Made by a program: the position numbers and the translations under genes
From: Eremomyces bilateralis CBS 781.70
Taxonomy: Eukaryota; Ascomycota; Dothideomycetes; Eremomycetales; Eremomycetaceae
Assembly (NCBI RefSeq): GCF_010015585.1
Contig: NW_022985088.1
Coordinates: 311,136-375,135 of the forward strand
Reading direction: 5' to 3'
DNA: 64,000 bases
Notes under the pieces: generated by a model
Database searches by the model: none
Seen by the model: only the letters and a program-made list of their open reading frames with translations
What the model was told of the DNA's origin: nothing
Part shown: positions 3,512-63,458 of the stretch, piece by piece
Position numbering within the stretch: position 1 is the first letter of the stretch
Layout of the letters: the number at the start of each line of letters is the position of its first letter

Positions 3512-6500
3512 TCATTTTGGTTCATTTTCTGAGGGTTTTCTTTGCTTCTCTTTTCTTCTGATCCTCCTCAGTGCTGCCAGCCGTTGGACTTTGGCACCTC
3601 TCTGCCCAACTGTACGTCTCATAGAGTATCCGCCTACGATCATTGGTTCTTGTTCTTCGTCTCGAGATCTCTTCTGAGAGGGGTTCAGGCGATCGGTGTT
3701 GATCTTAGCAAGTTCTTCAGCTGCAGTATCTTCAACAATCTCTTCAAAGAGTTGTTCTCCTGTGGTCCTCGTCTGAGGCGTTTCGTTTTCTATTTCTCTT
3801 TGCTCATCTTGTTCTGTAGGCGGAGAGTCACTCTCGACTTCCATTGACTCCACCTCTTCTGCAACCGGTTCATCTTCGATGGCTGGTTCGGCAGGAGGCA
3901 TCGGTTCTACCTCTTCTGCAACCGGCTCATCTTCGATGGCTGGTTCGGCAGGAGGCATTAGCGGTTCCGCTTCTGCCATTTCTGTGTCCATATCTCGGTA
4001 TGAACTATCTTCCGGGGAGATGGACGGTCTCCTAAAGATTGATGCATCAAGTTCAACCGGTGTTGCGTCTGCACCCGGTACAGCGCTGTCACCCTGCTTT
4101 TGCTGCAGCAGTGACGTGCCATTCTGCTGTGGCATCCTCATCACTGGAGGAAGTTCTTCTAACTGTTCTGTAAGGAAGGGTTGGGGTACGCGACTCTTGC
4201 CGGCTTGCCGCTTCTCTGACTCTATGTATGCCCTTACGGCGGCTTCAATCTCACCAGGCTCGCGACCTTCCTCCCCCTCCAGGAATTGACGTGCTCCTGC
4301 ACGATTCGGAAGTCCTTGCAGCTCGCGCCAAGTTTTCTTCGTCATCTGCTTCAGCTTCTCAATTCTGATCTCAGATTGTCCTCGAACGGGGTCTTCTACA
4401 TCCTGGAATGTGATACTATCAGGGTTATCGACTTGGAAATCTCGTCCCTCTGCGGACTGGGCTTGAATCCATTTGCCAATATCGACTTCTCCCCTGACCA
4501 GTACCAGGCGGTTCCCATGCACTAAATGCCTCAAGATCTTCCCACTGGGCGTTTCTAATGCATACGTCCCAAGTGGGTGTGCCTTGGCAATATAGTAGGG
4601 TCCCACCCAATTCGCTTCAAATTTCTTCTTCTGTTCCCGACGAAGGAGTACTCGTTGCCCCTCCTTAAAGCCAGGTTCTCTTGTGAAGGTCAAACCGTTG
4701 TGAAGTCCCATTTGCTCCGCACGATCGAGCAATCTTTCATGCGCAATTTCTCGAGCGGTGCGCAGCCGCTTGACCCAGTCAATAACTTCATCTTCGGTTG
4801 CCGGTCTCTTTTCCTCTGAGGCGTTTTTCATAACATCCTCCGGCAAGTTTGGGTGTCTTCCGAAAACAAGATAGTATGCTGATCTTTTTGTAACAGTGTG
4901 CTGGCGGTATCTACAAGCAAGGAGAGCTGCATCGAGATATTCATCCCAAGAGCTAACCTTCTTGCCTATGCACATCTTTGTCAAAATCGAACCAAGTGTT
5001 CCATTGAGGCGCTCCACCTTGCCATTGGTTCGTGGATGGTAAGGCGTTGCAAGCTTATGACGCGTCTTCAAGATTCGGAGGAGATGTTCAACCACATTCG
5101 AGATGAATTGACTGCCATTGTCTGACGTAAGGGCTGAAGGGGCGCCAAACGTAAGCAGGATTTCCTTGTACAAAAACTCTGCGATCTCAGGAGCCGTTGC
5201 ATCAGGGACTGCTTTGGCGATTGGCCATCCAGTCGCATAGTCAATGGCAGTAATGATCCATCGGTTTCCGCGATTCGTCTCCGGAAGGATACCGATAAGA
5301 TCAATTCCCTATTCTTCAAATGGCTGTCTGGGTTGAACACGATGAAATCGGGTTTCATTTTCCTTACTTTGGCGCTTGGACTGCGCTAATTGACATTCAG
5401 GGCAATCTGAAGCCACGTTTTCAATGTCCTTCTGCATACTCGGCCACCACCCTTTTGTTTCGACCACGCCGTACAAGGCCGGCCAAGCAAAGTGGCCATA
5501 GTCGCGGTGGACCTTGCGCAATGAGTCTCGGCGAGTCGGTGGGGGCCAGTATGGCACCCAAGGGGCGTCCTTGTGGTCGTCAATTCGGCGCTCAAGGAGG
5601 TCATCCTTTGGCGCGATGCGGAATCTTGAAAGCTCTCTCAGCTTGAGTAGCTTGTTGCGCCGGACACGCTTGTCATCGGGAAGTGTTCCGGTAAGCAACC
5701 ATGTTCTGATGGCTTGAATACACTTCTCTTCAAAGCTCATTTCTTCAATAACGTTCAGCGCATACGGGTTACGGAAATTCTGCGCTTGATTGGCGGGAAC
5801 GTCTTCCATAAAGTCTGGGCGTCGAGAGAGTGCATCTGGCACAGTTGCTTCGGTACCTTTCCGATATTGTAGGTCGAGGTTATACTGCTGATATTCTCCA
5901 ATCCAGCGTGCCAACCTCTTCGTTGGGTGAGACATAGTCTGCAAGTACTTCAGGCTCTCATGATCCGTGAGGATCGTCGTCTTGTCTTTGTCAAGGATGT
6001 ACTTGTTCCATGTCTTCAAGGCGTGGGTAATCGCCAGCAGTTCTTTTTCATGGACAGGGTAGTTGAGTTCAGCGGCGCCCAACTTTCGTCCTTCAAAAGC
6101 AACTGGGTGAAATACGCCATTGTCATCATCTTGGTATAAGGCTCCACCAATGGCCCACTCTGAAGCGTCAGTTTCGATGGTGAAGGGCTTGTGGAAGTTT
6201 GGCTGAATAAGGACGGGGTTCGAAGTCAGGCAGTCCTTGAGTTCGTTAAACGCCGCTTGGCAGGACAATGTCCAGCGGATTTGTCGGAACTTGTCCTTCC
6301 TACGGGCCTGATCTTTTTCCTTCAGCAACTCATGTAGCGGGGCTGCAATCTTAGCGAATCCCTTCACGAAACGACGGTAATATGCGGCAAGACCAAGGAA
6401 TTGGCGCACATCGTGTACGGTTCTAGGCGTTGGCCACTCTCGAATGACGTCAACCTTCTTCTGCTGGGGGCGAACGATGCCTTTTTCGATAACATGGCCA

Positions 6501-8022
6501 CAAAAGTCGATGCTTTCGGCTGCGATTGAGCATTTCGAGGGCTGTGCATACAGCTCCTGGTCAGCCAAAGCTTTGAGTACGGCTTCTATGTGTTGTTCAT
6601 GTTCTTCCAGTGTCTTGGAGTAGATGATGATGTCGTCTAGGTAAACCAACGCGAAACGGTTCAAGAACGGTCGCAGTGTATCATTCATCAGATGCTGGAA
6701 CGTCGACGGGGCGTTGGTGAGGCCGAACGGCATCACAATGAACTCGTACTTGCCATGCAGAGTATTGAAAGCAGTCTTCGCTTGATCAGCAGGATCAATC
6801 AGGAGTTGCCAGAATCCTGAAGTCAGATCGATTTTCGTAAAGACGGTTGCTTCGTTCATGGCTTCCAGACACTCATCGATACGCGGCAGCGGATAAGTGT
6901 TGCGAGTAGTGAACGCATTTAGAGCCCGGTAGTCGACACACATTCGCCATTTCCCACCCGGTTTAGGCACGAACAATACGGGGCTTCCCCATTCGCTGAT
7001 AGATTCTCGGATCAGTCCACGCTCAATTAGGGCTCGAACTTGTTTCAGCTGTTCCTCGATGTGTACGGGAGGAAGGGAGTAGTGTGGCTTGTTGACAGGT
7101 TTGGCATCTCCTGTAGGAATCTTGTGGTCAAACTTCCTCTGTGGGGGAAGGTGATCAGGGAGACTGTCGCGAAAGACATGTCGATATCGCTCGAGTATCT
7201 CTTGGATGCGAGCATTCGTAGTCTTCGGTAGGAGGTCGGTATCGGTAGCGTCTCCTTTGATTTCCGCTTGAGTCTCGTTCTTTAAGATATACAAGCGACC
7301 TTGTTCGTCTGGGCACTCTCTTTCCCAACATTTTCGGAACGATCGATATGGCATCAGGTTGATTTTACAAGGAGTTTCATCGTCGCTAAGGTCGACGACT
7401 GATGAATCGCCTTATAGAACATGAGTCCAAGCCTTGGAATGAGTGCTGCTCACTCGTTGTTTAATGACCAACTTGGATAGGGGCCAATCGATTGCTGGAT
7501 TGTGTTGTCGAAGCCATTCGATTCCGAGGATTACGTCGTAGTCGTCCATATCAAGAACTCTGAAGGTACGTGTCTCTCGGAAAGAACCAATCTTATAGGG
7601 GACTCGAATGCCTTTCGTGCTTGTCATCTCTTGACCATTAGGTAGGCGTACTCGTCGAGAAGGTAGGTTAAAGACAAGATACTGAGGAGACTTCTTGTAA
7701 AATCTATGCCAGAGCTTCTGGGATATATAGCATCGACCAGCACCACAATCTAACATGAACTGAACTTTGGTAGAGTGGTTGGTTTCTGGTGCAAGTTTTC
7801 CTGTAAACTCTATCAGGTTTGAACCGATGGCGTTCAGTCGGTCGATCCCATCGTTCCAATGCCAAATTTCCTCAACCTCTAGATCTTCAGTGCTATCAGA
7901 CGAGAGATCATCGTCTTTAGCACACGACCACAGCGAGTCGGACGTATTGTCGGGGTCAGAGGAAGCATCAGGTTCACCTATGCTCGGAAGGGCTTCCTTC
8001 TCTACGAGCGAGTGGCTTTTGG
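3512..8022 (-). pseudogene. gypsy pol polyprotein, two in-frame stops
   Basis: One reading frame runs from the frameshift site near 8017-8023 to the stop at 3512 and is broken twice. Protease: DCGAG around 7738-7750. Reverse transcriptase: upstream from about 7150, with the catalytic YLDD at 6632-6643 in a typical VYLDDIIIYS block. RNase H: begins near 6190 with TIETDASEWAIGG. Integrase: a zinc-binding HHCC region (GHFAWPA ... CPEC) at about 5400-5520, then the catalytic core downstream of the second stop. A TAA at 7412-7414 separates protease from reverse transcriptase. A TAG at 5309-5311 replaces the tryptophan normally found before GIDLIG at the start of the integrase core. The C-terminal tail is acidic and proline-rich, with an 18-residue block (PPAEPAIEDEPVAEEVE) repeated twice at about 3850-3960. 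No chromodomain was seen. Confidence 0.9.
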
Positions 8023-9438
8023 GATCTCCTCTGAATTATCCTTGTCGTCTTCTGCTTCTTGCGAAGGGCAGTCTCGAGCAAAGTGGCCGTGTCCACCACA
8101 ATGGTAACACGTCCTGGCTGTTTTCCACTTCTTGTTTCCCGGATCGAGTCTGGGCGCGCGATTGGTTTCGCTTCCGCCACGTCCGCGTCCACGACTAAAC
8201 CTGCTTCTGTCTCCACGGCGGAAAGATCCGCGAGAAGAAGATCCACGAATCATATTCATATCGTCATAGTTCGTCGTCGTAGTGTCAGACTCATACTCAT
8301 CTAGGTCTTCAATATCATCGCCGTAATTTTCCATTGCGTTGAGGCGATTTCGAGAAGAGTATGGACGGCGATACACTTCGAGGGCTTCGATCTCGCGTAG
8401 CTTGAAGATGCGGGCAGACCATTCTGATTTGTCTTGACTTGGATCCGTGATACCGAGTTGCAGATAGTACCTCTGCGTGAGGTGCCTGCGGACGCCTGCC
8501 ATAAACCGTTCGCATTGCTCGCGTTCAGAAGGGCGGTCGGTTAGGGAGTAGGCATAATCAAGGAACCTGTCCGAGAAAGCTTCTACGGTCTCCCTCTCTT
8601 GCTGGCGAGCGTTATGGTATTGACGATTTACTTCGATTTGGTGTCCTGGGGGAATCTTCATATTGCGGAGCCAAGTGAAGTAATCTTCTGCCGTTACCAT
8701 CACGTTTGGTTTGATGGCCGGGGGGCCGACGCGGTCTCGGTCTATCATCGTCACTTCCCTGGAACGGTAGTATTCCATCGTCTTGGTATAGTCCTCCATC
8801 CATTGTCGTTGCAAGCGGCCTTTCGTAAATCCCATGAGACGGGTGATATTTTCCGGTTCAGGAAGTTCCTGACCGCCGTGCTCGGTAATAGCCAAGGCGT
8901 TAAAGTGGACCTTCATTCGGGTAATGAAGTCGTTCACTTCGCGCACCTTGTTTTCCGCGTCATTATTGAAAGGATCAGGCTCAGTTGGCTTGTTGTACCG
9001 AGGTCGGACCACACTGGGGGGCAAACCATTGCCATATCCCTGGTTATGAGCGGAATAGGGGCTATCGCCACGATTGTGGGGAATGTTGTAACCTTTAATG
9101 ATTTCTGGTGCCACAGTGGAGGCGTCCTCCATGGTCACTGAATGTGAGGCACCTGGAGGAGTAGTGTAGCGAGCTCCTCCGTTGACGATGTTGCGAGTCT
9201 GTTGCGTCCTCATATGCTCCTGTCGAACGTGGAGATTGTTGACATGTTCGGTAAGAGCATTGATTTGTTGCTGTGGAGAAAGGTTCACCCAAGCAACAGC
9301 ACTCAAGTGAGGGACTGGAGATGACTCGAGAGCTCCATGCATCTCGCTAGGAGGCGGTCCATTTGCCAGAGGTGCTTCAGGCGCAGTTTGAGAGTGTTCG
9401 GAAGCATCCTCAACGGTAGGTTGGTGCTGTTCAGACAT
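8002..9438 (-). CDS. gypsy Gag, nucleocapsid-type
   Basis: 478 codons, intact. Gag assembles the virus-like particle in the cytoplasm and packages element RNA. The N-terminal 90 residues are low-complexity (P, S, T, Q), followed by a retrotransposon Gag capsid-like region around residues 150-350 (MKVHFNALAI ... ERFMAGVRRHL). An arginine/glycine-rich stretch and a single zinc knuckle C-x2-C-x4-H-x4-C (CYHCGGHGHFARDC) lie near the C terminus. The stop at 8002-8004 lies 12 bases past a CCCAAAA slippery heptamer that gives access to pol. Gag being open while pol is stopped shows that the damage is patchy. Confidence 0.85.
   Translation of the reverse strand: MSEQHQPTVEDASEHSQTAPEAPLANGPPPSEMHGALESSPVPHLSAVAWVNLSPQQQINALTEHVNNLHVRQEHMRTQQTRNIVNGGARYTTPPGASHSVTMEDASTVAPEIIKGYNIPHNRGDSPYSAHNQGYGNGLPPSVVRPRYNKPTEPDPFNNDAENKVREVNDFITRMKVHFNALAITEHGGQELPEPENITRLMGFTKGRLQRQWMEDYTKTMEYYRSREVTMIDRDRVGPPAIKPNVMVTAEDYFTWLRNMKIPPGHQIEVNRQYHNARQQERETVEAFSDRFLDYAYSLTDRPSEREQCERFMAGVRRHLTQRYYLQLGITDPSQDKSEWSARIFKLREIEALEVYRRPYSSRNRLNAMENYGDDIEDLDEYESDTTTTNYDDMNMIRGSSSRGSFRRGDRSRFSRGRGRGGSETNRAPRLDPGNKKWKTARTCYHCGGHGHFARDCPSQEAEDDKDNSEEIPKATRS
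8017..8023 (-). promoter_or_regulatory. programmed -1 ribosomal frameshift site CCCAAAA
   Basis: On the minus strand the gag codons read ATC CCA AAA GCC, so C-CCA-AAA is in the X-XXY-YYZ register. A -1 slip leads into the pol frame, which is open from there through the protease. The gag stop follows 12 bases later. This matches the known gypsy gag-pol strategy. A downstream RNA structure was not evaluated. Confidence 0.7.
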
Positions 9439-11888: not shown

Positions 11889-14800
11889 ATGGCGCAGGCG
11901 GGTATAGAGTTGCGGACACCTGCTAGTATCTTTAACACGATAGAGCAGGAGTTCGAACACGGTGGTCGACCAGGTCGAAATCCGAATCGGGATGGATCAG
12001 TGCTCGCAGGCCTAGGCCTTCGGACATCGACGGACATTGCTGAAGAATTCGAGAGAGAAGAGGAGCAGGCCAGAATAGAGGGGAGTTCCCGCGGTCAGCG
12101 GACTCAGACGCCGAGTGCGATGCCGGGGGCGATGCCGAGGGCGACGTCGTCCAGCGAAGTAACTGATAGTACTGAGCACGGTCCGAGCGAGACCAGTCCT
12201 TCTGTCGTGGCGAACCGATCCTATTTAGGACAGAGGAGGTCCGGGCCGGCCATTTCTCGTAAGACGCCCTCTAAACGCGTCCGAAGAGCGGACCGTTTAG
12301 ACTGGAATAAAGAGGAGCAAAGGCGAGAGCTCGACGGTATTATGCGTGGATTAGATGACGAATTCGTCGAGAAAGAGCGGCTCTCTTATGACCAGGCGTG
12401 GTGTGCGCCGATCCTAACCAGGACTAAGGTTAATACCGTCTAGGAGTTCTATAAAGCGTTCCATGATGTGAACACGTTACCGATACTCACTTGCATGTTT
12501 TGTTATGGCAAGTACGGCCGGATCGAGCTGCAGGAAGTGGCATAGGAACAGTGGACGGCCAGTCCTATTAAGAAGCGTCAAGATTCGCCTTTCTAATACG
12601 TTAAGTGTTTCCCTATCGGGAAGAGTATTTACGGGTGTAAATCCTGTGTGCTACAGCTAGGGAAAAATAGTCTATCTCTAGGCGCCCAGTTACACGACCG
12701 ACTCGGATACGAGCATATGTTCCCCGATGAATTAAAGGATCTAACGCCGATTAAGGAGAAGCGTATCGCACTGAATTCGTGCTACGGCTTCATCGCCCAG
12801 TATAGTATCCCTAATAGTCCGAGGCAAGGTGTGAGGTATAGGAGGCACATCAAGGGGCACATCACCGTCTTCCCCAACAACGTGCAGGAGCTGGTGGCCA
12901 ACGTCCTCCCGCATCCGCTCCTGAAGGTGATGGACGAGATTCATATGTCCTGGCAGGGGAAAGAGAAGCCCGTACCAAGCGATTTGTCAGTCCTTCTATC
13001 GGTTCGGCGTCGGGTAGTAGAGAAGGCACTGGTATGGCTGAAGCGGCATAATCCGCTGTATGGTCATATTAAGATCGATGTAGCCGAATTGGAGAGCTGG
13101 GATACGCCCTCGCACGGGGTACTATCTCGAGTATATGAGCGGTTAAGACGGGATGAGCCATCGGCGCAGGAGAAGGCACGAACTGGGCAGTTAGTTCCAC
13201 CCACAGAGCGCGGCCTAGATGAAGGAGAGGCGATAGATATTCGAGAAGTCCTGGCCACGTTAGGTGAGGGGTACGATATCGAGCCCGACCAGGACGTAAC
13301 AGGAGAACCCGAACAGGGCGATACTGCCGATAGGGATAGGGACAGGGTCTCTAACGGCGCTGCAGTTCCCGTTTATGAAACCAGTTCATCGGGCATGTTC
13401 GCACTAGATAGGGGGCCGGATATCGCGAACGGGGAGAAACTATAGTACGTTCGTGATACGCTAGGCCAACAGGATCCGCGCAATAAACGGCGGGGTAGGA
13501 CGGCAGAGGTTCGGCGTGGGAATGGTGCCGAGCCGTATATCGTGGTGAATCGGGGCGAGGACTTTGCCGATCCGTTCGATGTACGGTTCTTCGCAAAGAC
13601 GTTCCCAGCGCTATTCCCCCTCGGTCGTGGAGGCCCACTTCAGGCGGATGAGAGCATACAGGACGCCGCCGGGGAGAGAGACGTGGGCATTGAGGCGGGC
13701 CGGGCACGAGACCTCATTTCGTCGCGGAACATGGGACTGGTGACGTGGGCCAAACTGGTCCTCCAGCGTCACGGCGGTCGATTCGCGTCACACCCTATCT
13801 TTGCCTTTCTCGTTTTTAATGTGGGTATCCGGTCAAGGAACCGCCGCGTTAGTATGGCGAGTGTGAAGAGGAAGGAATTCCCCGAAGTTGAGCGTCTTAT
13901 ACGTTTGCTAAGCGTGGAACGGCTAGAGCGTGCTAAGGTCGAACTAGAGGTTTCACGGACGACGAGCGACGAGGGCGTGAATCAGTTATTAAGGAGCCTG
14001 TCGCTGTATGGATATCGCCAGCCGATGTCGAGGGAGAGTCGTTTAAACATGCGGCGTAAGATCCAGTCCCTTATCATTCGGGATGGCATCCCGGCCATCT
14101 GGTTCACGCTGAATCCGAACGACATTACTAATCCGATCAAGCTCCGGCTTGCCGCGTATCGGACCCGAGATCCGGAGGAGGCTGAAGCGTTCTTAACTAG
14201 CCTAGATCTAGCGTATAAGCGAGCACGGCTGGCGATCTCGGACCCGCTCAGTTCGGCCCTTTTCTTCCATAGGGAGATTTCCCTATTTTTCAAGCACTAT
14301 GTAAAGACAGGGGAGGACTCGGTGTTTGGGCGGATCAATCGGTATTTCGGAGCCGTAGAGACCAACGAGCGCGGGTCTCTCTATGTCCACGGGCTTCTCT
14401 GGCTCCAGGGAAATATGCAGCTGAGTTCTATTCTACAGGACAATAATGAAGAGGATCGGGAGGCATATCGGGAGCGGGTTACTCGATATGTAGATAGCGT
14501 GTTTACCGAGGTATGTTCGCCGTATTATGGCCATATAGAGGAAAGATTGTCAAATGTAACCAACTAAGCTAAATCCCCAAAAAGGGACGCCCCTACTAGG
14601 AGGCTAGTAGAAGGGCAGATATAGCTAAGGTAATTTTCCTGTGACAAAGATAGCCGAGTATAAGGCTGAACGGTATAGGATCTCGATTACGAGGCGTTCT
14701 CCGCCGTTCGGGCGGAACGGTCCGTAATGTCGGACATATCGGCGCTACTAGCGAACCGCGAGCAATTCGCCGCCGCGTTCGAGGAGGAGGCCAACTTCTG

Positions 14801-17206
14801 CGCCGGTGCTACCCAGATCCACACCCATAGCCCGACGTGTGTGAAATACTCCATCAAGGGGCAGACACGGAAGAATCAGGACCCGTGCCGGTTCAAGGCC
14901 CCGTAGAAATTGGTAGAGAGGACGGCGTTTACCGAGGGAGGAGTGTTACAGATTCGGCGGACGCATAGTATGGTGAATCGATGGAACGAGGCGATCGCGG
15001 TAGGGCTGCGTCATAACTATGACATTTCGTTCATCGCAACGCAGTGTAAGACTATGGCCCTCGTGTTTTACCTAACGAACTATGCAACGAAAGTCGAGGA
15101 CCCGGTGTAGAAGCGGGTGGCCGCAGCGGCAGAGCTAATCCCGGCTCATAACGATGCGATGGCGGAGCGGCAGGAAGACGCAACGGATGGCCCGACAACG
15201 GACAACGGTACCGAGAACCGGACACGGCAGTTTTTAATGAGAATCGCGAACCGGATCTTCACGGAGCGGCCGTTATCACTCGTAGAAGTCGTCTCTAATC
15301 TGCTAGGTTACCCCAGGGAATTTACCAGTAATAACGCCTGGTCGTTCGTTAACGTCAGTGCCCTATACTGGCATATTTTCCGCCGGTAGCCGCATCTGCA
15401 ACGCGAGAGTGGTATAGACTCTAGAGACGAGGCAGTTGAGGAGACGGTGTTCGTACAGGAAGCGGGAGTAAGAATTTCTCTTATTCAAGCATATCCGCAC
15501 CGTGGCCGACTCTTACAAGCGCTGTCCCTCTATGATTATATGTCGGTAGTCAAGTTGAAGCGAAAGGGGAAGGACATTGGTAAGTAGGGTGAGATAGAAT
15601 TAGACCATGCTTAGTCTCCGTCGCGGTCGTGGGTACAGGTACTACGAAAGTCCAGCGAGTATACGATAGTCTGCTTCGACGGCTACCTAAGTAGAGACCT
15701 GAGTGAGGAAAGTGAGGTCTACTATAAAAGGTATGTGTAGCGCCTCTCTTTACACGATCGAACTTATTACTATATTCTGGCGAGAGCGAGAATGATACTC
15801 GGGAGGGTTAACGATCTGGCATACGCAGGGCTGCTATTCAGCATCTTGCCATCTTTGTGCCGTGGGAGTCCTTTTTGGCCGAGACGACGGGCGATATTAA
15901 TACGATCTGGGAGAGTCGAAAGCCGGGTCTGCCTCGGCGGATGGCATCTATCGCCGAGAATATCTAACTGCTGCACCGATCGGCCGAAGACGCAAAGCGC
16001 GATACGAAGTAGTAGGCCGCGATGTCCGGAGAGACGGATCCGTTCGCCGATGCGGCCGATCTAGAAGATAGGGGCGATGATAGGAGTGAAGGGCCGAGGA
16101 CAACGTACCGGTCAGACCGCCTCGGCAATGCCACACGACTCATTGACGTCCTAAGGAACGCAATAGAGGCCTATCAGGTCACAGCCGGCTCGACAGAGAT
16201 ATCGAGGATGGTAGATCAAATGAGCCGATTTCAGCAAACCGCCCTAGATTCTATAGACGAACTAGGAGCTACGACCACCCTCGATCAAGGACCAGGAACT
16301 CTTAGCGGCCAAGGAGACGGGTTTCCCGGGCCAGCGGCGTCGGTCGTGCCGGCACAGGGGTTGCTTAAGTCGATCAAGGCGCAGCAAAAAAGCGTCTCTC
16401 GCGAGAGAGAGAGGATAATCCAAGGGATCCAGGGGTCGGTCGGGGAGAGTAATGCCGAGTTCAGGGCGCCCAACGGTTTCGGGGAGCAGGACGTCCATTT
16501 CACCGCTGCCGATGAGGAAGGCCGGGGCGGGGACCCCGGACCATCTATGAATATCCAGCTCGGTCCCTCCACGTCGTTTTCTGCGGCAGGGAAGCAGTTA
16601 GCAGAGGAGTCGTTTACCTTAAACCGAAAACAGAGCATCGCACTTCGACTCATCTGTCGCCAGCTAGACCGGATCCGCCGCGACGAGTCCGGAGTTCCCC
16701 AGCTCTGCCAATTTATCGGAGGCGAGGGCGGGACGGGAAAGTCACGGATCATCGGAGCGGTCGCGGCGCTGTTCGCGAGGAAGGGGATCCCGCAACGCCT
16801 GCTAATCACAGCGACCTCGGGAACAGCGGCTGCTAATATTAATGGGGTTACCATCCATTCCGCGTGCGGGTTCTGGAAAGATACAGCTCGGTCGGCGGGT
16901 CGGAGTGCGGATTTAGAGAGATTCGCGCCGAGGAGTTCAACCAATCTCCGCATCGATGGACGAAGCCGGACCGAGTGGCAGGAAAAACTCCTGCTTATTA
17001 TCGACGAGGTTAGCATGCTGGGTGCACGGACGCTGTATATAGTGAACGAACAGCTATACCGACTTCGAGGGTGTGTAGACGACTTTGGCGGCATCCCGAT
17101 TATTGTCTTCTGCGGGGATTTCCGTCAGTTCCGTCCGGTCCAAGAGCGGTCGATCCTTCTCCCTAGCCACGCTATTACGTGGACCGACGATAGTACGTTA
17201 AATTGA
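11889..17206 (+). pseudogene. Helitron Rep/helicase, multiple stops, truncated
   Basis: The frame resumes after each stop: 11889-12443, 12444-12647 (three stops), 12648-13445, 13446-14510, an apparent intron 14511-14678, then 14679 on, with a one-base frameshift near 15830. Rep domain: conserved IWFTLNPNDITNP near 14100. The HUH motif at 14382-14390 reads Tyr-Val-His instead of His-x-His. The paired tyrosines survive as YLTNYATK (Tyr codons 15069-15071 and 15081-15083). Helicase: Walker A GGEGGTGKSR near 16720-16750, Walker B LLIIDEVSMLG near 16990, and motif III GDFRQFRPV near 17120. Helicase motifs IV-VI are missing because the sequence ends at 17206. Stops are TAG or TAA where Gln or Trp is expected. 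The copy cannot be functional. Confidence 0.85.
14511..14678 (+). other. apparent 168-bp intron in Helitron Rep gene
   Basis: GTATGT at the left, CTGAAC branch-like sequence and TATAG at the right. Removing it joins VDSVFTE to DLDYEAFSAVRAE, a normal Rep continuation. The length is a multiple of three. It contains stops, including TGA, not explained by RIP. Confidence 0.55.
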
Positions 17207-25695: not shown

Positions 25696-25928
25696 AATGA
25701 AGATCGCGACAGGGGTATTGCAGTTCTTCTACCCAAATTGATGTTGGCCTTAATGGTTTTGCTAACAAGAAATGCTGATGAACTATCATTGTTGGAGCGA
25801 GTAGAGGTCCTTTATACTCCTTTCCGAGTCGTATTAAGATTGATCTGTTAATTCTACCGCTCCGGCCTGATCAACCAAGACGTTTAAAGGTCCGCACGCC
25901 GTCCCGATCCGTGTCCGCATATCCCGCA

Positions 25929-26040
25929 CCTGCAGACCCTTGTTTTGCGGGAGTCCACCTGCCCTTATAAAGCATTTCCCGAAACCTGCAGACCCCTGTT
26001 TTGCGGGGATCCACCCGCCCTTATAAAGCATTTCCCGACT
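25929..26040. repeat. tandem 56-bp promoter duplication with two TATA boxes
   Basis: Two adjacent 56-base units (25929-25984 and 25985-26040) start CCTGCAGACCC and end in CATTTCCCGA plus two variable bases. They differ at only a few positions. Each carries TTATAAA (25965-25971 and 26021-26027). They lie in the divergent promoter between the NmrA-like gene and the Zn2Cys6 gene that starts at 26127. Confidence 0.85.
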
Positions 26041-61009: not shown

Positions 61010-62026
61010 CTATGTCTTCACGTTGTGTCTTTCAAGCTCCTCTTCCGGCACAAGGTCGTTCAATGCTTGGGAGAAGTATTTCGCCATGGTATAGTGAGTA
61101 GTGTTCTCCAACTCCGTAAGGTTACTATGAGGCAGGCGTTTGGCCATATACCGAATTGCCTCGATCGGGGCGTTCGCGTCTTTTAATCCATGCCAGATCC
61201 TGACAGGATTATAGTCTACTTTTTCTAACTGGAATCCCCAGTCCGCATCAGATAGTAACCTGGCCTCATGCACAAACGTCGTTGAGCCTTGCTTAAAGCC
61301 CTCTAAAAGTAGCCGCACCATCCGCTCTCGTGTCTCCGCTATCGAAAGCTGCACATCCTCTCCAAGTCCAAACTCTTCTTCTTCTTTTCCTTCCTTACTA
61401 CGGCGCTTCTCTAGCGATGCGTCAATCCATCGCATGATTGGCCGCTTCTTCACCAACCACCTCAACAGACCGATGCACGTGCTTGTTGCTGCAGCAAAGG
61501 TGCCCGGCGTGTACACTGCCGCCCACGCAATGACCCGGCGGTACCACGACATGTAATGCGGGCCTGCAGCCCAAGGCGGCGCTCCCGCAAAGACTCCCAC
61601 GGCCGACACCATCGGGCGCGTCAAGTAGCGCGCACATGCCAGCGCATACGGTCCCCCGCCCGAGCAGCCGAGGACCGCGAAACGTGAAATGTGCAGAGAA
61701 TCAGCGAGAGCGGCGACATCTGCGGGCCAGTCCGTTATGCGCCGGTCCGGCTGCGCTGTCGAGAGACCGAAGCCAGGGCGGTCGGGGGCGATGATGCGGA
61801 TACCGCGACGAAGAGCCAGGCGATCCAGTGGGTAGGTTTCGAGACGCGAAGAGGGGAAGCCGTGCAAGAAGAAGAGGGGATAGCCAGTGGAGAGACCGTA
61901 TTCGGCATACCCGAGGGTACGGCCGTCGGCGAGGGTGATGGTGAGGTTCTCTTTGCCGTTAAAGTCAATGACTCGGGAGGTTGAGAGGAGTCGAGAAGTT
62001 GATGGGGCAGAGAGTGGTAGCTTCAT
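61010..62026 (-). CDS. alpha/beta-hydrolase fold protein
   Basis: Single exon, 338 codons. The fold-1 signature is complete: oxyanion-hole FFLHGFPSSR near residue 52, IIAPDRPGFGLS near 79, nucleophile elbow LGCSGGGPYALACARYL with Ser in G-C-S-G-G near 121, and the catalytic His probably in ENTTHYTMAKY near 318. An Asp in HGLKDANAP near 285 completes the triad. A Lys/Glu-rich insert (EKRRSKEGKEEEEFG) sits in the lid region. The substrate is unknown; relatives are esterases, epoxide hydrolases and lactonases. An N-terminal hydrophobic or targeting signal is not clear. Confidence 0.85.
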   Translation of the reverse strand: MKLPLSAPSTSRLLSTSRVIDFNGKENLTITLADGRTLGYAEYGLSTGYPLFFLHGFPSSRLETYPLDRLALRRGIRIIAPDRPGFGLSTAQPDRRITDWPADVAALADSLHISRFAVLGCSGGGPYALACARYLTRPMVSAVGVFAGAPPWAAGPHYMSWYRRVIAWAAVYTPGTFAAATSTCIGLLRWLVKKRPIMRWIDASLEKRRSKEGKEEEEFGLGEDVQLSIAETRERMVRLLLEGFKQGSTTFVHEARLLSDADWGFQLEKVDYNPVRIWHGLKDANAPIEAIRYMAKRLPHSNLTELENTTHYTMAKYFSQALNDLVPEEELERHNVKT

Positions 62027-62312: not shown

Positions 62313-63458
62313 TAAGGCCTTGTCTACTTCGAAGCTGGCAGGTTTAAGAAGCAGGGGCCAGGTGGGCGTTTTGGCTTTTCTATTATTAGAAACCTGCCAG
62401 AACGGCTAATGTCTACCTACTGGCAGGTTCGGAAGCTGCAGGTTCTTACTGTGTAGTCATGTTGCCAAGTCACGATGTGTGACTTGCGTAATAGCTTCAA
62501 ATTCCAATCTGACCTCTCTTAGCCATCCACCCTGCAGCTACATCCCAGCCACGTGACCTAGGAATAATGTGCTCTGATTAGTCTATATACTTCGAAAATC
62601 ACTACAGCGCGGGCACCCTCACCACCTATTCCGGGCACCCCCACCACCTATTCCGGGCACCCCTACAACATATTCTGGGCATCCCCCATCACCTGTTTTG
62701 GGCACCTCCACTACCTATTCTAGGCCCTACTATCACCCATTTTGGATACCGTTTATCACTCCCGGCTCCCGTTTTGGGCACAGACGCTAGAACTGGTGGT
62801 TGGAAGTGCCCGAAAACGGATGATAGAGGGTGCCTAAAATGGGTGATGATGGGGGTCTAAAGTCGGTGGGGGGAGTGCCTAAAATAGGTGGTGGAGGTGC
62901 CCAACAAGGGTGGTAGGGGTACCCAAAACGGGTGGTAAGGGTGCCTAGAATGGGTGGTACAGATGCCCGCGCTATAGGAACTTTCGATATAGATCAATTA
63001 GAGCACAGTATTCCTAGGCCACGTGGCTGGGATGTAGTTGCAACTTGCAAGGCAGGTTGGGATGTAGATGCAGTATCTCCCTTGCCGTATACGGCGGTAG
63101 CGTAGATCCGATCAGCGATGGTGGTTTGGACGATATAGAGGGGCCATTGTGATAACAATAAGGAGCAGAGAACCTGCCAGCGAGCGTTATTATCGGGTCC
63201 ATCGATGGAGCAGAAAAAAACCTGCCGCAGGTTTGCCTAATTGGGCGAAATACGAGGTGGCGGTGCGCTAAAAAAGCCACATTTCGGGATGTGGACCTGC
63301 CGACAGGTTTTCACCACGAAAAAGTAGACATACACCCATTCTGACGTTAATATCGAACCTGCCACGAATCTGCAACGAATCTGCCACTATTTAAGTAGAC
63401 AAAGCCACCTGCCAGCGCTATTATCGGACTTGCCGGCCTTCAGGTAGACAAGGCCTTA
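62313..63458. mobile_element. non-coding TA-flanked element with inverted ends (MITE-like)
   Basis: TA then AGGCCTTGTCTAC at 62313-62327 and its exact complement GTAGACAAGGCCT then TA at 63444-63458. No transposase gene inside. CCTGCC or its complement GGCAGG, usually next to AA or TT, recurs at least eight times (for example 62338, 62391, 62422, 63051, 63172, 63219, 63409). Such subterminal motifs are typical of transposase binding sites. The middle is a long imperfect palindrome (about 62530-63065) carrying the inverted 22-bp arrays. 1146 bp including the TAs. Confidence 0.7.
62611..62968. repeat. two inverted arrays of about seven 22-bp repeats
   Basis: From 62611 the plus strand repeats a unit close to GGGCACCCCCACCACCTATT plus two bases, 22-23 bases each, for about seven units to about 62780. 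From about 62795 to 62968 the same unit is repeated about seven times as the reverse complement. Units diverge with position. Flanking unique sequence (ACATCCCAGCCACGTG... and its complement near 63020-63040) is also inverted. Confidence 0.8.

Follow-up and report, generated by a model that had tools for sequence, protein, structure and literature searches.

A probable nest of two non-autonomous DNA transposons in Eremomyces bilateralis, with a Mutator-like foldback MITE inside an element with short inverted ends

The element at positions 62313 to 63458 of the window (the whole stretch of 64,000 nucleotides that was analysed, C22:311136-375135) probably consists of two non-autonomous DNA transposons, one nested in the other, in which a Mutator-like foldback MITE lies within an outer transposon that has short terminal inverted repeats (TIRs). 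The genome that was searched is a 26.6-Mb assembly of 62 contigs, and copies and relatives are named here by contig. The preliminary description had held that the layout fits no standard named family. This no longer holds once the element is split, with the inner part (the core) assignable to the Mutator/foldback type and the outer part to the non-autonomous TIR transposons.

Exact inverted ends of 15 nt with the TA included, or 13 nt without it, bound the element, in agreement with the ends described earlier. The left end (62313-62327) reads TAAGGCCTTGTCTAC, and its exact reverse complement is found at 63444-63458. The features of the element are as follows.

62313 to 62327, plus strand: left end of the outer element, with TA(A) flank and TIR GGCCTTGTCTAC; exact inverse of 63444 to 63458
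62328 to 62521, plus strand: left body of the outer element, containing CCTGCC/GGCAGG motifs; common to copies C15, C34a and C31
62522 to 63081, no strand assigned: inner element, putative Mutator-like foldback MITE; palindrome, with likeness to standalone relatives
62550 to 62555, plus strand: CACGTG of the left arm, found here in 13 of 16 aligned arm ends, counted by eye
62610 to 62783, plus strand: array of forward ~22-bp repeats, approximately GGGCACCCCYACCACCTATTTT
62805 to 62970, minus strand: inverted array of ~22-bp repeats
63020 to 63025, minus strand: CACGTG of the right arm
63055 to 63081, minus strand: inner element, right terminus, the minus strand reading GGGAGATACTGCATCTACATCCCAACC; pattern search, TACAY at offset 15
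63082 to 63443, plus strand: right body of the outer element, containing CCTGCC and GTAGACA motifs; common to copies C15, C34a, C34b and C21
63444 to 63458, minus strand: outer element, right end GTAGACAAGGCC with TTA/TA flank; compare the empty site of another copy

Within the left body, the match of C34a starts at query base 68 and that of C31 covers query bases 3-74. The abundance of CCTGCC motifs noticed earlier was confirmed: the two strands of the element have 9 sites, whereas 500 shuffles had 1.1 on average and never more than 5. Consistent with its description as non-coding, the longest open reading frame (ORF) overlapping the element has 88 aa (ORF floor, 40 aa). No match in the window was obtained from Rfam at gathering scores. 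An ORF for an alpha/beta-hydrolase (61010-62026, minus strand) starts 286 bp from the element, which lies upstream of it.

When the whole element was compared to its own reverse complement, the score was 294, and the maximum in 100 dinucleotide shuffles was 38. The same score was obtained for 62522-63081 alone (shuffle maximum, 34), and 380 of the 490 aligned positions were identical. The palindrome of about 500 bp previously proposed is therefore real, but it is confined to about 62522-63081, where it has an outer boundary of its own, and does not form part of the TIRs of the entire element. The core is a 560-bp imperfect palindrome that holds about seven 22-bp repeats per orientation, as had been counted before: seven forward cores were found in 62610-62783 and seven reverse cores in 62805-62970, a count that omits one extra forward match within the reverse array. 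The spacing is mostly 22 bp, with values of 32 and 44-45 where a unit is skipped or degenerate.

The right terminus of the core (...GCAGTATCTCCC) is present in the window copy and the left terminus is missing; a complete left end, GGGAGATGCTGCATCTACATCCC, survives in copy C34b. C22, C15, C34a, and C21 all lack the left tip, and two of them, C34a and C21, lack the right tip as well. A 9-bp duplication of the core is not visible because tips are missing and, in C34b, in which the left end is intact, the flanks differ. C34a and C21 have lost different portions of the right arm of the palindrome. In C21 and C22 (62521/62522) the core is broken on its left side at about the same position (GCCATCCACCC), and the sequence beyond it is unrelated (in C21, L013 upstream of 4074).

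Relatives of the core were found at other places in the genome. A genome-wide search with a pattern of two adjacent units located arrays at C2, C5, C6, C12, and C24 beyond the composite copies. Clusters of the pattern occur in family members only, and the three isolated matches with 3 mismatches (C1, C6:1227558, and C17) are comparable to the 4 matches of a reversed-pattern control. Genome BLAST with the C12 copy added C38, C14, C9, and second places on both C24 and C2. This C12 query did not recover the window copy, nor did the window copy recover C12; the first look of BLAST scores few candidates, and the link between the core and its relatives rests on direct alignment. In direct local alignments, the core scored well above the best of 100 shuffles with 10 of 11 relatives (C6, 112 versus 29; C9, 67 versus 27; the lowest, C5, 50 versus 32), and the alignment with C14 was marginal (37 versus 30). 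Identity to the core was 65 to 83% over the best pieces of the ten well-scoring relatives, which indicates that the family is old.

The relatives that have both ends (C5, C6, C9, and C12) are all flanked by exact 9-bp target site duplications: TTAATCTAT in C5, TTTACTTTG in C6, ATAATATTA in C9, and ATACCCAAA in C12. C2, C2b, C24a, C24b, C38, C14, and C26, in which one or both ends were missing by eye, were left out of this scoring. C12 and C6, which lie in opposite orientation, form a young pair: they are identical at 606 of 609 positions, and this branch has therefore moved recently. C12 is 611 bp long and consists of 276-nt arms that are 92% complementary and a 59-nt centre. C9, C12, C6, and C2 have arrays in both orientations. 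C5 has short arrays, in which three units were found in forward orientation and none in reverse orientation, so not all members need a full array.

The order of motifs within the arms recurs. Among the 16 aligned arm ends, CACGTG follows the tip repeats in 13 and ATTGG (CCAAT-type) is present in 10, both counted by eye; at the place where ATTGG is found in most of the relatives, the two window arms read ATTAG and ATTGA. The tip is GGGAA in C12, C6, C5, C2, and the left end of C9, AGGAA at one C9 end, and GGGAG in the core. Of 10 core-type ends listed, 9 have TACAY at offset 15, and the tenth (PK_R) had been cut 3 nt too far out. Elsewhere in the window, a 56-bp tandem repeat at 25917-26038 contains GGGAAATGCTTTATAA on the minus strand, which is like the tip of the core family, and this repeat is possibly a degenerate relative.

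A target site duplication of 9 bp (8-11) is characteristic of the Mutator (MULE) superfamily. Duplications of this type flank four of the four two-ended standalone relatives, and the window copy is without its left tip. The inner family also has the long TIRs, GG tip, and subterminal repeats of Mutator elements and, as in foldback elements, long TIRs made of tandem repeats form most of the element (the arms of C12; 380 of 490 positions in the core).

The genome encodes MULE transposase domains: there are 19 matches to PF10551, some of which are probably pieces of one gene. An inverted-repeat search around 8 of the 19 (L046-L051 with 1.5-kb flanks; L064 and L065; widened C1, C6, and C22) found TIRs at C1 and C13 only, and a stricter scan of L046-L051, L011, L012, and L018 yielded only a nested pair in C13. 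The C1 MULE is 3245 bp long, has TIRs of 186 bp (96.8%), and is flanked by the 9-bp target site duplication ATTAAATCC. Its TACAY motifs are at offsets 15, 31, 37, 60, and 83, and those of the core left end in C34b are at 15, 31, 37, and 60. This C34b end was identical to the end of the C1 MULE at 30 of 70 ungapped positions, and 0 of 2000 shuffles were as good. When six ends were compared to the C1 MULE over 70 nt, one beat all shuffles, one was at 63 of 2000, and four were unremarkable, and over the first 24 nt, five of the six were at or below 62 of 2000; all shuffle figures for ends versus MULEs are uncorrected across 24 comparisons. These comparisons suggest that C1-type MULEs are related to the core family, for which the shared register is support rather than proof.

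The C13 MULE (L046, C13:351639 region) is about 2.7 kb long. Its 89-bp TIRs are identical, so it has perhaps been recently active, and it has no clear 9-bp duplication, only AATCT. Over 70 nt, one of the six ends was at 59 of 2000 shuffles compared to this MULE, and five, that of C34b included, were unremarkable; TACAY is not found at its offset 15. The nest explanation is slightly less firm because of this lack of the tip register in the C13 MULE and because BLAST with C12 missed the window copy. An autonomous partner with the same ends as the core was not found around the 8 of 19 MULE matches, nor did a pattern search against all 19 PF10551 matches place a MULE transposase between core-type ends. 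One long pair of core-type ends was located at C6:1137456-1142819 (L057 257-5620, 5.4 kb), with flanks alike at 7 of 9 bases. It encloses ORFs for a polysaccharide deacetylase, HNH_2, and DUF7881, with no transposase seen, and is possibly a fungal Pack-MULE or possibly two separate end fragments. L016 1943-2412 (C26) and L057 5188-5620 share about 430 bp beside the tip at 80% identity, and this stretch appears to be a core-type end without arrays.

The inner element would thus consist of two long inverted terminal repeats placed almost back to back. In the relatives, each arm reads from the tip inward as a GGGA tip, TACAY repeats, a module of CACGTG and a CCAAT-box-like motif, and the ~22-bp array. 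Its mobility would most probably come from a MULE transposase acting in trans, for which the tip and the spaced repeats would be the recognition sites, and insertion would produce a 9-bp target duplication. Transposase-binding sites and promoters lie in the long TIRs of Mutator elements (PMC3310237). The array would then be a series of sites for protein binding, spaced by about two helical turns; with units of ~22 bp, consecutive sites would lie on almost one side of the helix, an arrangement suited to co-operative binding of transposase or a host factor.

The strongest alternative concerns this last step, the only one with which it conflicts: the arrays may be minisatellites that grew by slippage in an ordinary TIR element and bind nothing. 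The varying spacing (mostly 20-24 bp), the differing number of units between copies, and the three forward units of C5 with none found in reverse make this possible, although we consider it doubtful, because diverged and young members have a like unit in like order and because clusters of unit pairs are restricted to family members, isolated matches being about as frequent as in the control.

The search of the genome for the ends and the 22-mer, which had been put forward as a check on the preliminary description, established that the element is multi-copy, with the element at five loci and arrays elsewhere too. Genome BLAST with the element returned C22, C15, two places on C34, and C21, as well as a 72-bp left end on C31. 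C31:226236-230259 and C34:1-4024 overlap over 4024 bp with 2 mismatches, inside a Helitron with a 1291-aa ORF that has Helitron_like_N and PIF1 domains and with a DUF6570 ORF. Insertion of this Helitron splits the outer copy at C31/C34, and the two contigs probably belong together in the assembly. C31 and C34a are one locus, and therefore there are five outer loci (C22, C15, C34a/C31, C34b, and C21). In C15, half of the element is duplicated next to ten consecutive N, a probable artefact of scaffolding, and C34b has 1160 bp in place of about 120 bp. The flanks of the outer copies showed no copy-to-copy match; beyond C31/C34a, the only flank matches were short repeats (C21 left, C21 right, and C22 right).

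For one of these insertions an empty site was found. The C1 MULE is matched by the left flank of C31 (97.9% over 340 bp) and by the right flank of C34a (95.5% over 600 bp), and both flanks also match the C13 MULE weakly. In the C1 MULE the two flanks join without a gap, whereas the filled site has an extra TTA: the empty site reads ...CTTATTA/GTCTTG... and the filled site ...CTTATTA-GGGCTTGTC...GACAAGGCC-TTA-GTCTTG. The C1 MULE is a paralogous empty site of the C31/C34a outer insertion. The gapless junction indicates that the outer insertion duplicated TTA, or TA, since the site fits both. Flanking triplets are TAA/TTA in C22, TTG/TTA in C15, and CAA on the one side, the right, of C21; TA is present at both C22 ends and absent from C15 left and C21 right.

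The outer part, with its GGSCTTGTCTAC ends and CCTGCC motifs, is best read as a second non-autonomous TIR transposon that carries the core. A 3-bp TWA target site duplication is typical of PIF/Harbinger elements (Tourist MITEs), and TA duplications are typical of Tc1/mariner. Tourist-like MITEs of PIF-Harbinger have a TTA duplication and a GGGCYTG-like tip, and the outer element resembles Tourist-like MITEs in its tip and, if the duplication at C31/C34a is read as TTA, in its duplication. It is unlike PIF-Harbinger in that its duplication is inexact at other copies and in that the genome gave 0 matches to the Harbinger transposase domain DDE_Tnp_4 (PF13359), which introns or divergence could hide. 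The outer end pattern with up to 2 mismatches had 37 matches in the genome, fewer than the 75 of a reversed-pattern control, so that most are due to chance, and no new inverted pair of ends within 10 kb was present among the 37. The four 1-mismatch matches outside the known copies (C4, two on C7, and C30) had no subterminal sequence in common by eye. Neither the end-pattern pairs within 10 kb nor the PF13359 search of the genome provided a transposase, and hence an autonomous partner, for the outer part.

If terminal repeats, CCTGCC motifs, and central arrays all belonged to one transposon family, the core would be expected wherever the outer part is found, and it is present at all five outer loci; the outer part without the core was never found by BLAST of the left and right bodies against the genome. 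A single family is nevertheless improbable, because relatives of the core exist outside the outer part, with ends and 9-bp duplications that belong to them, and because the right terminus of the core sits 377 bp inward of the outer end. In the nest of two transposons that we prefer, the outer element with its short TIRs and its TTA or TA duplication would have spread the core as cargo to at least five loci, the composite being moved by an outer-type transposase.

The capacity of the core to form a large hairpin, suggested in the preliminary description, finds support in the palindrome score and in the predicted RNA fold of the core (-337.5 kcal/mol, z -19); that of the C12 relative is -561.4 kcal/mol (z -42). 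The core would form a strong hairpin, as any long palindrome would. There is a slim chance that the inner family is a portable regulatory hairpin in one of two ways, either with the E-box/CCAAT-box-like modules of both arms driving transcription in two directions across the inverted arrays, to give dsRNA that silences those MULEs whose ends are copied in it, or with the arrays acting as a decoy that titrates MULE transposase. Comparable silencing by a hairpin is known from Mu killer in maize, and if the silencer reading is true, carriage by a second transposon would spread the silencer. Slimmer still is the chance that the core is a source of hairpin RNA or small RNA kept by the host, its transposon features being mere history: the predicted folds are very stable, but any palindrome folds in this way, and the deletions in the palindrome differ in two copies.

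It is very improbable that the feature is a subtelomeric or replication-related repeat, for although all copies are ~4-22 kb from contig ends, exact TTAGGG x3 is absent from the whole assembly, no telomere repeat was present at the 19 contig ends viewed (one reads N), and contig ends look like assembly breaks in repeats, since those of C31 and C34 sit in one Helitron and others share sequence among C1, C2, and C5 and between C4 and C21. The absence of exact TTAGGG x3 means that telomeres are missing from the assembly or built of another repeat.

Among known systems, the closest precedent is the Tm1 family of root-knot nematodes, which its authors called Mutator/Foldback (PMC3169594). Tm1 is described with composite TIRs of tandem repeats, a foldback form, MITE-like members, and target duplications of 8-10 bp in 45 of 53 cases, mostly 9 bp, and one Tm1 copy holds a nested second element, as is the case here (PMC3169594). 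Tm1 differs in its repeats of 13-15 bp, compared to ~22 bp here, in its tip motifs, and in that transposase-bearing Tm1 is known, whereas none with the ends of the core was found in this genome (PMC3169594). The fungal MULEs Hop1 and VdMULE1-3 have the MULE domain, GGNAA tips, which those of the core family equal or differ from by one base, and subterminal direct repeats in their TIRs, and one element of the group has an 8-bp target site duplication (PMC3441728). They differ in encoding transposase and in their short repeats of 5-17 bp, and long inverted arrays are not described for them in the text consulted (PMC3441728). Tetris of Drosophila virilis is likewise a non-autonomous foldback element with tandem repeats inside its TIRs, but its repeat unit is ~220 bp and its host is another (PMC4079207). 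No fungal Mutator foldback family with ~22-bp arrays was among the literature matches listed (titles and abstract openings), which says little.

This kind of element is thus already known; its own repeat unit and its nested history are distinctive, and no new mechanism emerges. The element and its copies would record a nest in which a MULE received a short-TIR element bearing a MULE-type foldback MITE, itself invaded by a Helitron, and it would add a fungal case of Mutator-type ends made of ~22-bp arrays. The natural repeat array could be used in binding tests with MULE transposase, and if the arrays are functional, the number of units should affect mobility.

Of 43 singleton changes of the C-to-T type among the five copies, 21 are in CpA context, a weak hint that RIP may have acted on the copies. 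Other mobile elements are present in the window. Positions 12648-17206 contain a Helitron-like element with plus-strand ORFs for DUF6570, Helitron_like_N, and a PIF1 helicase. On the minus strand, 3512-9438 contains ORFs of an LTR retrotransposon, of Gypsy type by their order: a zinc-knuckle gag-like ORF, one with RVT_1/RNase H/Integrase_H2C2, and an integrase piece with rve below the cut-off. A protein with a fungal Zn(2)-Cys(6) domain is also encoded in the window.
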